Source: Flammeovirgaceae bacterium
GTDB taxonomy: Bacteria > Bacteroidota > Bacteroidia > Cytophagales > Cyclobacteriaceae
Reading direction: 5' to 3'
NCBI GenBank assembly: GCA_023251155.1
Contig: JAHEZH010000006.1
Coordinates: 27,950 to 71,110, forward strand
DNA length: 43,161 bases
The position numbers were made by a program, and so were the translations under genes. Shown here piece after piece: positions 8,031 through 26,173 of this stretch (its first letter is position 1; each line of letters starts with the position of its first letter). The notes under the pieces are model-generated. The model was not told the origin of the DNA, did no database searches, and saw only the letters and a list, made by a program, of their open reading frames with translations.

Positions 8031-8759
8031 ATGCAGCTTAAAATATTCTCTCCCCAAGTTTCAAGATCACTTCAGGCAAGGCAACGAAAGAGAAGCACAC
8101 CTGCCGTGAAACCAGATACCTTTTCTTCGGAATGGAATCTGTGGACACAGGGAGCCGATCAGGAAAAAGAGATGGCGTTACTGTTTCTGGACATACGTAA
8201 TTTTACCCCACTGGCAGAAATGCATGAGCCGCAGGATATCATTCACATCGTAAAGAAATTGTTTGTCGCATTTCAAAACATCATTCATCAACATCACGGG
8301 CGAATTATTGAAACGACCGGTGATGGGTTCTATGCGGCATTTGGTTTCAGTCACACGATCAAAAGCGCAGTGAATGCCGCGGTGCAAAGCGGGTTCTCCA
8401 TTCTTACTAATCTTGAACTTCTGAACCGCGCTTCGTTTGAAAGAAATCTGCATCGAAGAATTGAAGTAGGCATCGGTGTGCACGCAGGTAAAGTAGCCAC
8501 TGGTTCAATTCGCCTGGGGGAAGAAGATCGTCTGGTAGTAATGGGCTATGCGGTAAACATTGCTTCGCGATTGCAGGCCGCCACTAAAGAACAGAATAAC
8601 AACTTCATCGTTTCCTCAGCGGTCTATCAACACCTCGATAATCCGCCTGCCTCCAGGCCTGTTTCGGAGGTGAACCTAAAAGGGGTGACGGATGGCTTTG
8701 AACTTCATTTAATTGGCAAGCCCTACCGTGCAGAGCAGATGGAAATCGAATGTGTTTAA
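8031..8759 (+). CDS. Class III adenylate/guanylate cyclase, catalytic domain only
   Basis: Makes a cyclic nucleotide from ATP or GTP. The 242 residues are a cyclase homology domain (about 48-200) with a short N-terminal tail and no recognisable sensor domain or membrane segment. The metal-binding aspartates are D54 (LFLDIRNFT) and D98 (TTGDGF). The transition-state pair is N176 and R180 (AVNIASR). The base-selecting positions are unusual: the usual Lys position is E94 and the Asp/Thr position is V169, so the product cannot be assumed to be cAMP. The start is ATG 8031. Its regulator must be a partner protein, since no sensory part is fused to it. Confidence 0.9.
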   Translation: MQLKIFSPQVSRSLQARQRKRSTPAVKPDTFSSEWNLWTQGADQEKEMALLFLDIRNFTPLAEMHEPQDIIHIVKKLFVAFQNIIHQHHGRIIETTGDGFYAAFGFSHTIKSAVNAAVQSGFSILTNLELLNRASFERNLHRRIEVGIGVHAGKVATGSIRLGEEDRLVVMGYAVNIASRLQAATKEQNNNFIVSSAVYQHLDNPPASRPVSEVNLKGVTDGFELHLIGKPYRAEQMEIECV

Positions 8760-8891
8760 AGCACCGTATCCGGAACATCACCGATCGCGCCCTTTCCATC
8801 TTGGGTATATAAAATTCAGCGCTGTGGATAATCTAAAAAATTGAGAATAAGACATTTAACCAGAAATGTCTCCGATTTTCAAATTTTCAAA

Positions 8892-8921
8892 TTGCCCAAT
8901 TTTCAAATTCAACTATCTTGC
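8892..8921 (+). promoter_or_regulatory. Probable dnaX promoter
   Basis: TTG (8892-8894), a 19-base spacer, then TATCTTG (8914-8920), close to the Bacteroidota -7 box TAnnTTTG. The predicted transcript would start within a few bases of the dnaX ATG at 8927. The region around the -33 element carries three TTTTCAAA(T) repeats. Confidence 0.5.
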
Positions 8922-8926
8922 ACCCA

Positions 8927-10036
8927 ATGGAAAGTTTTGTTGTCTCCGCGCGTAAGTATCGTCCGTTAGGGTTTGATGAAGTTGTTGGTCAGGAACATAT
9001 CACCACCACGCTGAAAAACGCCATTGACAATAATAAACTTGCCCAGGCGCTGCTTTTTTGCGGCCCGCGTGGTGTGGGTAAAACTACCTGTGCGCGTATT
9101 GTAGCCCGGATGATCAACGGTTTCGAAGAGAAGGCAGAAGTCAACTCCCTGAATATTTTTGAACTTGATGCCGCTTCCAACAACTCGGTGGAAGACATTC
9201 GTAACCTCATTGACCAGGTGCGCTATCCTCCTCAGTTCGGAAGATTTAAGGTGTACATCATCGATGAGGTTCACATGCTCTCCAATGCGGCTTTCAATGC
9301 TTTTCTGAAGACACTGGAAGAACCGCCTTCGTATGCCATCTTTATTCTGGCTACTACAGAGAAGCACAAAGTGATTCCAACTATTCTTTCACGTTGCCAG
9401 ATTTTTGATTTCAACCGCATACAGGTATCCGACATCACCAAGCAATTGCAAAAAATTGCCAAGCGTGAAGGTATTGTTGCTGAAGAAGAAGCCTTGCATT
9501 TGATTGCTCAAAAAGCAGATGGGGCATTGCGTGATGGTCTTTCTATTTTCGATTTGATGGTGACGTTCTCCACCGGAGAAAAAGTGACCTTTAAAGATGT
9601 GCTCAACAATCTGCACATTCTCGATTATGACTATTATTTCAAAATCGTTGATGGCCTGCTGGCTGAAAATCCTACACAGCCTTTGTTGTTGTTAGATGAA
9701 ATTCTTCGCAAAGGTTTTGATGGACACAATTTCATTGTTGGTCTGAGTGAGCATTTAAGAAACTTACTGGTATCGCAGGATACACGTACCATTCAGTTAA
9801 TGGATGTGCCTGACAGCATTAAGAAACAATATGCGGCACAGGCTCAGGCTTCACCTCCTTCCCTTTTGCTTTCATGGCTCAATATTGCCAATCAATGTGA
9901 CATCCATTATAAAGGAAGCAAGAACCAGCGATTGTCTGTCGAGTTGGCACTGATGAAGATGGCCAATGTCAACGCTGTATTCAAATCCAATGGAACTGCC
10001 CTCGCACAGGAAGCAGTAAAAAAAAAATTGAACTAG
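8927..10036 (+). CDS. dnaX: DNA polymerase III gamma/tau subunit, 0-frame (gamma-length) product
   Basis: Clamp-loader ATPase of the replicase. The 369-residue 0-frame product holds the complete AAA+ part: Walker A GPRGVGKT (46-53), Walker B IIDEVH (111-116), the SRC motif (ILSRCQIF), and the collar domain. ATG 8927 is preferred to a TTG nine bases upstream. The stop TAG at 10034-10036 comes just after a run of ten A, and the tau tail continues in the -1 frame. The four-cysteine zinc module that usually follows Walker A is missing: between MINGF and LNIFELDAAS there are only a few residues and no Cys. No other dnaX is visible. Confidence 0.95.
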   Translation: MESFVVSARKYRPLGFDEVVGQEHITTTLKNAIDNNKLAQALLFCGPRGVGKTTCARIVARMINGFEEKAEVNSLNIFELDAASNNSVEDIRNLIDQVRYPPQFGRFKVYIIDEVHMLSNAAFNAFLKTLEEPPSYAIFILATTEKHKVIPTILSRCQIFDFNRIQVSDITKQLQKIAKREGIVAEEEALHLIAQKADGALRDGLSIFDLMVTFSTGEKVTFKDVLNNLHILDYDYYFKIVDGLLAENPTQPLLLLDEILRKGFDGHNFIVGLSEHLRNLLVSQDTRTIQLMDVPDSIKKQYAAQAQASPPSLLLSWLNIANQCDIHYKGSKNQRLSVELALMKMANVNAVFKSNGTALAQEAVKKKLN

Positions 10037-10059
10037 AGCCGGAGTTCAGTACTCCGCTC
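10008..10059 (+). promoter_or_regulatory. Probable programmed slippage site in dnaX
   Basis: Ten A at 10018-10027, read GTA-AAA-AAA-AAA-TTG in the 0 frame. A Shine-Dalgarno-like AGGAAG (10008-10013) precedes it. A hairpin follows: 6 bp CGGAGT (10040-10045) with ACTCCG (10051-10056), extended after a one-base bulge by GAG (10036-10038) with CTC (10057-10059), starting 8 bases after the run. The 0 frame stops at 10034-10036 and the +1 frame at 10029-10031; only the -1 frame is open. These are the parts of known dnaX recoding sites. A homopolymer undercall is the alternative. Confidence 0.7.
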
Positions 10060-10671
10060 ACTTTACCCTCCGAGCAGCGCAAAACAGAAACACCTGCTGT
10101 AGAGCAACCAGTTCAGGTTGTTCCACCGGAGCCGCTATTACCATTGGCAGACGTCAAACCAATAAGTAATACACCCTCTTCCACCCCGAAGGAGTCAACA
10201 CGCACCAAGACGACGTTCAACCTGCAGAACATCGGCAAGGCTACCCCTAAGCCTGCGGAAGAAAAAAAAACGGATGAACCTAAGATAGCCACCAGCACCC
10301 CCGTATTCGATAAACCCATCGATATGGATTCGTTGAAGAAGGTGTGGAATGAATTTGCTGAATTGAAAAAAAATAATGTAGCCGAGTACCAGTTGTTGAA
10401 GAGAGGCTTTACGATTCAGGACAGTAAGATCACCATCACACTGAACAATGCTATTGAAGAACCCTTCCTTGCGGGAATACGCACTTCATTAATTGCCTAT
10501 TTACGTGATAAGTTAAGTAACAGTTCCATTCTCGTGAATGGAGTACTCCCTGAATTCACCGAGAGTCGCCCGATGATCTATACCAACAAAGAAAAATTTG
10601 ATTACCTCGTGAGCAAAAATCCTGCGCTGAAAGATTTGCAGGAGCGCTTCGGCTTGGATGCGGACTACTAG
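10018..10671 (+). CDS. dnaX: DnaX tau-specific tail, reached by -1 slippage
   Basis: This frame is open from the A10 run to the TAG at 10669-10671; its first plausible stand-alone start is a TTG at 10144. It begins with a Pro/Glu/Thr-rich linker (about 90 residues), followed by a compact C-terminal domain (SLKKVWNEFAELKKNN, then LLKRGFTIQDSKITITL and IRTSLIAYLRDKL). That order fits the tau tail of Bacteroidota DnaX, which contacts the polymerase and helicase. Joined to the 0-frame part by a -1 shift it gives a 581-residue tau, a normal length. A separate protein from 10144 is possible but unlikely. Confidence 0.85.
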   Translation, partial: KKKIELEPEFSTPLTLPSEQRKTETPAVEQPVQVVPPEPLLPLADVKPISNTPSSTPKESTRTKTTFNLQNIGKATPKPAEEKKTDEPKIATSTPVFDKPIDMDSLKKVWNEFAELKKNNVAEYQLLKRGFTIQDSKITITLNNAIEEPFLAGIRTSLIAYLRDKLSNSSILVNGVLPEFTESRPMIYTNKEKFDYLVSKNPALKDLQERFGLDADY

Positions 10672-10747
10672 TCCATTTGAAAATGAACCGATTTGATAAT
10701 TTGAACATGGAATGCACTTCCTAAGTCGATGTACTCACAGCCACCTT

Positions 10748-10819
10748 CTTCTTCGGTCTGTGTCCTCACAGACCGAAACAAAAAACGTGATCTAAAAGAA
10801 CCCAGACCGCGGTGAGAAG
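10748..10819. repeat. Single copy of the CGGTCTGTG palindromic repeat
   Basis: A perfect 9-bp inverted repeat, CGGTCTGTG (10754-10762) with CACAGACCG (10767-10775), around a 4-base loop. It is followed by GTGATCTAAAAG and a further CAGACCG. The order and sequence match the units of the tandem array at 21535-21867, so this is a dispersed member of that family. The element could also act as a bidirectional terminator between dnaX and the SDR gene. Confidence 0.65.
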
Positions 10820-10897
10820 AGAATTCAATAAGTGAGCTGATTTATAAACAGAATACAACATCACATTTCATTACCCAATCAACACATTTTCAAAATC

Positions 10898-11665
10898 CTA
10901 TAGATTAATTCCGCCGGCTACTTCAATACGTTGTCCGTTGATCCAACGCGCATCTTCCGAGCAAAGAAAAGCAACCACACCGCCAATATCCTCTGGCAAG
11001 CCTACGCGACCTAAAGCAGTGATGCTGGAGAGCTGATCATTGAACTCTTTGCTGTCTCTCACGCGACCACCGCCAAAGTCAGTTGCGATCGGGCCCGGAG
11101 CCACTACGTTCGCAGCAATTCTGCGTGCCCCCAATTCTTTGGCAAGATAACGTGTCAGTACTTCCACCGCTCCTTTCAGCGAACCGTACGCCGATGAACC
11201 CGGATACGAAAAACGGGCTAAGCCGGATGAGATGTTGATGATGCGACCCCCATCGTTAATGAAAGGCAGTGCTTTTTGTGTCAGAAAGAACACTCCTTTG
11301 TAATGAATATTCAAAGCCGTATCAAACTGTTCTTCGGTGGTTTCTGCAAATGGAGAATATAAAGCAGTACCGCCATTGTTAATCAGAAAATCAAATTGCG
11401 TGCTGCCGGTTTGTTCTTTCAAATGTGAAGTTACCTGCTGGATGAAAGTGTCGAATGATTTGATGTTACCTGCATCAAGGTGTAAAGCAAAAGCTTGCTG
11501 ACCTAATGCCTGGACTTCAGCCACTACTTTGTCTGCTTCCGTTTTGTTACTGTTATAGGTAAGCACTACATCGATTCCTTTCTTTGCCAATGCCAACACC
11601 ATATTTTTTCCCAACCCGCGGCTGCCACCGGTTACTAATGCGATTTTATTTTTCGTACTCATCAT
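10898..11665 (-). CDS. SDR-family NAD(P)-dependent oxidoreductase
   Basis: A classical short-chain dehydrogenase of 255 residues, cytosolic. The cofactor loop is TGGSRGLG (12-19), the central motif is NNGG (96-99, in place of NNAG), the catalytic serine is in NISSG (146-147), and the YxxxK pair is Y160 and K164. The C-terminal VAPGPIATDF and the ending WINGQRIEVAGGINL are typical of FabG-like members. Substrate unknown. It lies 95 bases downstream of, and on the same strand as, an AraC-type regulator, a common pairing in Bacteroidota in which the regulator controls the reductase. Confidence 0.93.
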   Translation of the reverse strand: MMSTKNKIALVTGGSRGLGKNMVLALAKKGIDVVLTYNSNKTEADKVVAEVQALGQQAFALHLDAGNIKSFDTFIQQVTSHLKEQTGSTQFDFLINNGGTALYSPFAETTEEQFDTALNIHYKGVFFLTQKALPFINDGGRIINISSGLARFSYPGSSAYGSLKGAVEVLTRYLAKELGARRIAANVVAPGPIATDFGGGRVRDSKEFNDQLSSITALGRVGLPEDIGGVVAFLCSEDARWINGQRIEVAGGINL

Positions 11666-25714: not shown

Positions 25715-26173
25715 TTAATAGTTAAAATCCTGAATCTTAGTCTGATTCTTAATCACAGCTACAGTACGTGTACTTCCAGTAAATACCGTAGATACAGGAG
25801 CTGAATTAGTCGTTACATCTGCACGGAAGTCAGGAAAATACAACTTTACAGAAGAACCTCTTGGACCCGCTTCAACCTCAATAGAATATTCTCCTGTAGC
25901 CGATACAGTGGTTTCGTAATACTTATTTGGATAAACTACTGATCCACTAACGTTTGTAGCTAAATCAGCTGTTGATATCTCAGCAATGATTTTAATTCCT
26001 TGTGAAACATTTTCAAGGCCTGTTGTCGTGGTATTCAATTCAGCCTTTACACGACCGGTGATTGTTGCTTTTCCAATGATTTCTTCAGTTGGACGTGGGT
26101 TTACAGAATTTTCATTCTGACAAGCAGAGAAGACAACAGCAACCGCTACGATTAAGTAAAAAATTGTTTTCAT
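25715..26173 (-). CDS. Lipoprotein, probable carboxypeptidase-regulatory-like fold
   Basis: An exported lipoprotein of 152 residues with a clear lipobox: VVFSAC with C18 as the lipidated residue. The mature part starts with a short Asn/Pro-rich linker and continues as a beta-sandwich-like domain (ATITGRVKAELNTTTTGLENV, then YYETTVSATGEYSIEVEAG), similar to the carboxypeptidase-regulatory/PEGA-type modules common in Bacteroidota surface proteins. It probably forms an envelope pair with the barrel protein encoded just downstream. The following space up to 26414 shows nothing I can assign. Confidence 0.78.
   Translation of the reverse strand: MKTIFYLIVAVAVVFSACQNENSVNPRPTEEIIGKATITGRVKAELNTTTTGLENVSQGIKIIAEISTADLATNVSGSVVYPNKYYETTVSATGEYSIEVEAGPRGSSVKLYFPDFRADVTTNSAPVSTVFTGSTRTVAVIKNQTKIQDFNY

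Follow-up and report, generated by a model that had tools for sequence, protein, structure and literature searches.

The window, meaning the whole stretch of 43,161 nucleotides that was analysed, carries a dnaX gene on the plus strand. The first open reading frame (ORF), taken as the 0 frame, starts at ATG 8927 and ends at TAG 10034-10036. It encodes a gamma-type product of 369 amino acids with AAA+ ATPase, lid, and collar domains (8927-10036). The initial annotation had also named the gene dnaX, and profile and structure matches support this assignment. The first ORF scores 376.7 bits against TIGR02397 (dnaX_nterm, cut-off 250); PF22608 and PF13177 are above their cut-offs, and PF12169 (domain III) is slightly below (22.4 vs 24.4 bits). 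The product also matches the E. coli gamma/tau structures, the best stretch being residues 3-343.

Close to the end of this ORF lies a run of exactly ten A (A10, 10018-10027, plus strand). The +1 frame is closed by TGA 10029-10031 and the 0 frame by TAG 10034-10036, the gamma end; these stops end 4 and 9 nt past the run, respectively. The -1 frame is the only one open beyond the run, up to 10671. The run and the fates of the three frames were as first described; the open -1 tail had been put at 200 codons, and measures 214. Re-reading one A joins both ORFs into a single 581-residue frame (tau) ending at 10671. The tau junction reads through EAVKKKIELEPEF, and the gamma product of the 0 frame ends in EAVKKKLN. 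As read from the DNA, gamma is in the 0 frame and tau in the -1 frame, so that a -1 shift is required to reach tau, an order opposite to that in E. coli, as was initially stated. The tau-specific tail (10028-10671, stop TAG 10669-10671) was assigned by translation and by a match (E 3.4e-21) to PRK14971, the NCBIfam model for DnaX, of which it covers positions 418-613 out of 614. A Pfam search of the tail gave no family, and an Rfam search of 8500-11000 gave nothing near cut-off. Neither ORF reaches the PRK14971 cut-off of 685 (628.8 and 75.7 bits); judging from these scores, automatic annotation may call this dnaX broken, or report gamma only.

Conservation of the run and movement of the tau frame

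Seventeen separate tracts of at least ten A were found on both strands of the 6.44 Mb source genome (19 hits, two pairs overlapping). Since such tracts are few genome-wide, and since the run recurs at the same dnaX site in relatives, the A10 in dnaX is more than chance. At order level, a dnaX match (threshold E 1e-60) was present in 92 of 96 genomes, including the source genome. These genomes and the named contigs gave 170 rows, reduced to 152 non-identical loci; L057 ran off its contig, and L051 and L170 fit neither layout. The 152 loci comprise 111 two-ORF genes, 39 single-frame genes, and 2 that were unplaced. Run lengths in the two-ORF genes are A10 (105), A11 (3), A9 (2), and A7 (1). The layout was also found in cultured strains, including Algoriphagus, Belliella, Echinicola, Parachryseolinea, and others.

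The initial annotation had asked for a comparison of run length and frames in relatives. Within the window's own family, 43 of the 48 distinct loci have A10 with tau in the -1 frame. The remaining five are two A11 loci (tau in -1), one single-frame A9 locus, one A9 locus with tau in +1, and one single-frame A8 locus beside an N. Across the run, the single-frame A9 locus (L027) is two bases shorter than the neighbouring loci L025 and L031. Tau is thereby placed in frame 0, and the locus retains A9 together with two close stops. In L048 and L120, A11 was gained at the expense of the next base and the tau frame was kept. The +1 locus of this family (L123, A9) comes from a fragmented draft of 810 contigs and may be an error; it was counted, but given no weight.

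One alternative is that the gene is dead, or that the run reflects a mistake in sequencing or assembly. Homopolymers are error-prone, the source genome is a draft of 333 contigs, and a permease-like gene of the same genome is also interrupted at an A10. The same run, frame, and tail occur in dozens of other assemblies, cultured strains among them, and no second full-length dnaX was found in the 6.44 Mb draft (333 contigs). This explanation is hardly credible. Because the same run, frame, and layout are shared by so many relatives, including cultured strains, the A10 feature is a real conserved recoding site by sequence comparison, and no assembly error.

The permease-like gene (L315, so read from its sequence; G000:C315, about 25879-25888, minus strand) has 324 codons before its A10, and beyond it membrane-protein-like sequence continues in a different frame. 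In two relatives, at 43 and 41% identity, the open frame extends over 433 and 446 codons, respectively. The interruption could be due to slippage, to decay, or to an assembly error.

The comparison was extended to the phylum, where a dnaX match was found in 389 of 392 genomes; the loci examined come from among the matches listed. Matches at 289 loci were reduced to 267 distinct ones (L057 was dropped, and the rest were identical); the paralogues L002 and L003 had been excluded beforehand. Run lengths are A10 in 204 loci, A9 in 24, A11 in 13, A12 in 1, and shorter in 17, with no run of at least five A in 8. Thus 242 of the 267 hold at least nine A at the site; the other 25 were excluded from the frame tests. 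No run of at least nine A was present in the loci seen of 12 of the 39 coded families. Relative to gamma, tau is in the -1 frame in 154 of the 242 loci, in frame 0 in 85, and in +1 in 3; among the 154, the tails of L006 and L051 run off their contigs (L051 after 17 nt). Single-frame relatives without an A run had been named as refuting the initial reading. Single-frame relatives do exist, yet 85 of 108 keep at least nine A.

The tau frame moved repeatedly. More than one layout occurs within eight coded families. A quick tree was built from 140 DnaX proteins (coded loci only, named ones excluded), with 47 of its 136 inner branches open. On it, at least 19 changes are needed to explain the three layouts; when only the label "tau in frame 0" is considered, the starred branches force 9. 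Two of the +1 loci, L209 and L210, are from different assemblies and differ at 120 of 1711 positions.

Two side observations were made in single-frame genes. Single-frame dnaX genes without a run of at least five A were seen in f30 (4 of 4 loci), in f33, f49, and f57 (one each), and in one of two f75 loci; here the signal was either lost or never present. Three Pontibacter genes (L105, L108, and L112) are single-frame with the run down to A7, and have downstream folds of -13.1 to -19.7 kcal/mol. All three carry the arms GGCACC and GGTGCC, and in L105 and L108 the best fold pairs them. In sequence, this looks like a change to ribosomal shifting of the E. coli type.

The mutability of homopolymer runs also suggests phase variation, in which changes of run length in the DNA would switch tau on and off in the population. 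Two close relatives in coded family f23, L180 (A9) and L183 (A10), differ in layout as one A would make. Against phase variation, 43 of the 48 window-family loci share both A10 and frame, and the A11 of L048 and L120 replaces the next base so that the tau frame is preserved. Moreover, tau has essential replisome functions in known bacteria. Phase variation is thus very improbable. As an observation in its own right, the one-A difference between L180 and L183 accompanies a split versus a single-frame dnaX.

Stop codons and run length at the site

Two mechanisms could produce tau from a split gene of this kind: slippage of RNA polymerase on the run, or programmed -1 ribosomal frameshifting on A_AAA_AAA. 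The latter would mirror E. coli dnaX, with the upstream purines, and perhaps the downstream hairpin, as stimulators. The two differ in the stops they need. For ribosomal -1 shifting a single stop is enough, namely the one that ends the short product. Slippage yields transcripts of every frame, and therefore predicts an early stop after the run in each of the two non-tau frames. Such a pair of stops is described for Thermus dnaX (PMC5009743, PMC1088944).

The distances to these stops were compared with later tail positions of the same genes as background, and families were counted once for P values. Where tau lies in -1 (154 genes), the +1 stop follows the run at a median of 5 nt, compared with 26 nt in the background. 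In the 85 single-frame genes, the stop of the frame that -1 shifting would leave unused lies at a median of 17 nt, compared with 35 nt. By family, third-frame closure is significant for the tau-in--1 genes (P 0.00042 within 20 nt and 0.002 within 30 nt) and for the single-frame genes (P 0.0016 and 2.3e-5, respectively); the three +1 loci gave P 0.12 and 0.22, a number without power. Both non-tau frames are closed within 30 nt in 229 of the 242 loci, where the background is 0.33. The closed third frame is thus an observation, as are the run, the three frames, and their conservation. Closure of both frames is what slippage of RNA polymerase predicts from sequence, and is not needed by ribosomal -1 shifting.

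Run length points in the same direction. A ribosomal heptamer needs just seven A, yet ten are kept, and this although AAG makes up 31% of the Lys codons upstream in these genes. The direction of the shift can be read in two ways. According to Antonov et al. 2013 (PMC3711429), a changing direction among orthologues indicates transcriptional slippage, and a single direction indicates ribosomal shifting. Of the 157 split genes with at least nine A, 154 need -1 and 3 need +1, one of these from a fragmented assembly, and this lopsidedness could favour the ribosome. The same lopsidedness would equally be produced by insertion of one A during slippage, and L209 and L210 do need +1. The A10 also includes the slip-prone A_AAA_AAA, and the three named Pontibacter loci, with A7 and a stable downstream fold, suggest that a ribosomal mode may exist in the phylum. 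The initial annotation had noted that slippage by RNA polymerase would fit; on run length, the closed third frame, and the changing direction, it is probably the best reading here.

RNA folds on either side of the run

The proposed stimulators were examined by folding. A downstream hairpin (10036-10059) is present 8 nt after the run, as was first noted. It is probably no signal, since it folds with z -1.2 and 26 of 200 shuffles fold as well. Among representatives, anchored downstream hairpins were not enriched (median -2.65 vs -2.75 kcal/mol, P 0.51). With an ordinary fold and no enrichment in relatives, the downstream hairpin was ruled out as a stimulator on the anchored test, which counts against ribosomal shifting. 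Unanchored downstream folds are below controls, with mean z -0.45 vs -0.22 in two-ORF genes and -0.70 vs -0.13 in single-frame genes; z is below -2 in 16 of 85 single-frame genes and 9 of 170 controls. This may be a weak effect in single-frame genes, and it counts against the slippage reading.

A stem-loop on the 5' side (9995-10017, ACUGC...GCAGU, plus strand) abuts the run, and the 34 nt before the run fold with -7.2 kcal/mol. Its assignment is based on folding, group tests, and covariation counts. The group tests covered 127 of the 242 loci, with at most 14 per layout from f1, f26, and the named group (which overlaps coded families), and 3 elsewhere. In these representatives, hairpins with 0-4 nt between their 3' arm and the run have a median of -6.2 kcal/mol. 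The corresponding medians are -2.05 kcal/mol elsewhere in these genes, -3.3 in dinucleotide shuffles, -1.1 before other runs of at least seven A in the same loci, and -3.8 in synonymous-codon recodings at family usage (P 4e-11). The hairpin is lower than at other places in 24 of 28 groups (23 of 27 coded families and the named group), and lower than the synonymous control in 21 of 27 families (P 0.0035). The best hairpin abuts the run in 67 of the 127 representatives. Unanchored upstream windows agree, with mean z -1.05 and -1.09 compared with -0.41 to -0.02 in controls; averaged by family the value is -0.93, one control window reaching -0.71.

The stem-loop is not equally marked everywhere. 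Six families are opposite to the synonymous control, and in the window's own family it barely exceeds that control (-6.39 vs -5.63); both points count against the slippage reading. Covariation was counted as pair cells with both bases changed. In f26 there are 10, compared with 3.0 in column shuffles (0 of 500), and slid controls reach 9; in 27 window-like loci there are 15, compared with 7.8 (11 of 500), and slid controls reach 14. On this measure the slid controls lie near the named stems, a further point against slippage. The share paired falls on sliding, from 0.84 to at most 0.57 in f26, and from 0.74 to at most 0.59 in the window-like loci. For loci with a TTA codon before the run, three registers, chosen by the analyst, were tried. 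With the first there was no signal (the score was matched in 441 to 483 of 500 shuffles), the second was mixed (36, 8, and 281 of 500), and the third stood above the shuffles in two measures out of three (0, 1, and 187 of 500).

In a Roseiflexus element, slippage of RNA polymerase is brought about by a stem-loop immediately 5' of the run, as described in section 43 of a review (PMC5009743). By analogy, the nascent 5' stem-loop probably raises slippage in dnaX.

The initial annotation had also listed AGGAAG upstream of the run. It is located at 10008-10013, 4 nt from the run, within the 3' arm of the stem-loop. Sequences like the Shine-Dalgarno (SD) sequence (at least 5 of 6 matches) are enriched upstream, in 31% of two-ORF sites compared with 4% of controls, and in 15% of single-frame sites compared with 6%. 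This enrichment speaks for ribosomal shifting, and for AGGAAG as an SD stimulator. Matches of this kind occur in 20 of 47 window-family loci and in 0 of 45 f26 loci. Bacteroidia ribosomes are described as not recognising SD sequences (PMC9976891). Because of this, and because AGGAAG is only 4 nt from the run and belongs to the stem-loop arm, a role as an SD stimulator is unlikely. Taking stops, run length, direction, and folds together, ribosomal shifting as the source of tau is an unlikely explanation, although it is the main rival to slippage.

Proposed mechanism and comparison with known systems

From the sequence analyses, programmed transcriptional slippage is quite likely the means by which this dnaX yields both clamp-loader subunits. 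RNA polymerase would realign on the A10 and produce mRNAs with varying numbers of A. An mRNA with A10, or with multiples of three more or fewer, would give gamma, ending at TAG 10034. An mRNA with A11 (or A8) would be read in the -1 frame to give the 581-residue tau, and one with A9 (or A12) would stop immediately at TGA 10029, giving another gamma-length protein. The nascent stem-loop ending at the run would probably boost the process. That RNA polymerase slips here, in which direction and how often, and what the stem-loop contributes are what we infer from these features. Gamma had been called the default product and tau the slipped one. This holds as a reading of the DNA only; with frequent slippage, neither product would be the default.

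A broader reading is more tentative, and we hold it to be somewhat less probable than its opposite. Stem-loop-assisted slippage may be old in Bacteroidota and frequent enough to reach all frames, so that the genomic frame of dnaX drifts almost neutrally. If so, tau has moved among -1, 0, and +1 many times, while the run, the two closed frames, and the stem-loop were kept. Such loci would be natural replicates of a reading frame moving without loss of function. If slippage is right, the DNA of a core replication gene does not give its correct reading in much of the phylum, and annotation pipelines may take the gene for broken. The few predictions of 2013 are extended to a pattern across the phylum, open to tests in cultured strains, and the sequence evidence here helps to separate slippage of RNA polymerase from ribosomal shifting.

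The reversed layout is not new. It was published in 2013 (PMC3711429) and discussed in a 2016 review (PMC5009743). Of greater interest than this reversal of the E. coli layout are the moving frame and the 5' stem-loop. For these, and for the phylum-wide spread in dnaX, no account was found in the open-licence literature.

Four known systems were compared. Antonov et al. 2013 reported 17 split dnaX genes in 12 genera, nine of them with A10, as a new type for which transcriptional slippage was predicted (PMC3711429). The present gene is of the same kind: it is a split dnaX in which gamma ends at the run, the tau tail is reached by a -1 shift, the run is A10 (as in 105 of the 111 two-ORF genes), and slippage is predicted. 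Compared with the 17 genes described there, the present set is phylum-wide, has tau in three relative frames, and shows the closed third frame and the 5' stem-loop. Thermus thermophilus dnaX also has an A run, near stops in both non-tau frames, and two subunits (PMC5009743, PMC1088944). The run of at least nine A and both non-tau stops are found here as well, whereas the uninterrupted tau frame is absent (TAG 10034-10036). The Thermus run is A9, its tau is one ORF, and its slippage was shown; here the run is A10, tau is out of frame, and slippage is predicted.

E. coli dnaX is the same gene with the same pair of products (PMC3711429, PMC5009743). It uses A_AAA_AAG, an upstream SD sequence, and a downstream hairpin, and there the shift produces gamma. 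In the present gene it is tau that is out of frame, and the case for either stimulator is not convincing. In particular, a downstream stem-loop of the E. coli type was not supported, either in the window (z -1.2) or by anchored enrichment in relatives. The Roseiflexus insertion sequence (PMC5009743, section 43) shares the stem-loop directly 5' of the slippage run, a feature that is present here, enriched across families, and modest in the window's own family. Its T5C5 run loses one C in a transposase gene, whereas the present A10 lies in a housekeeping gene.
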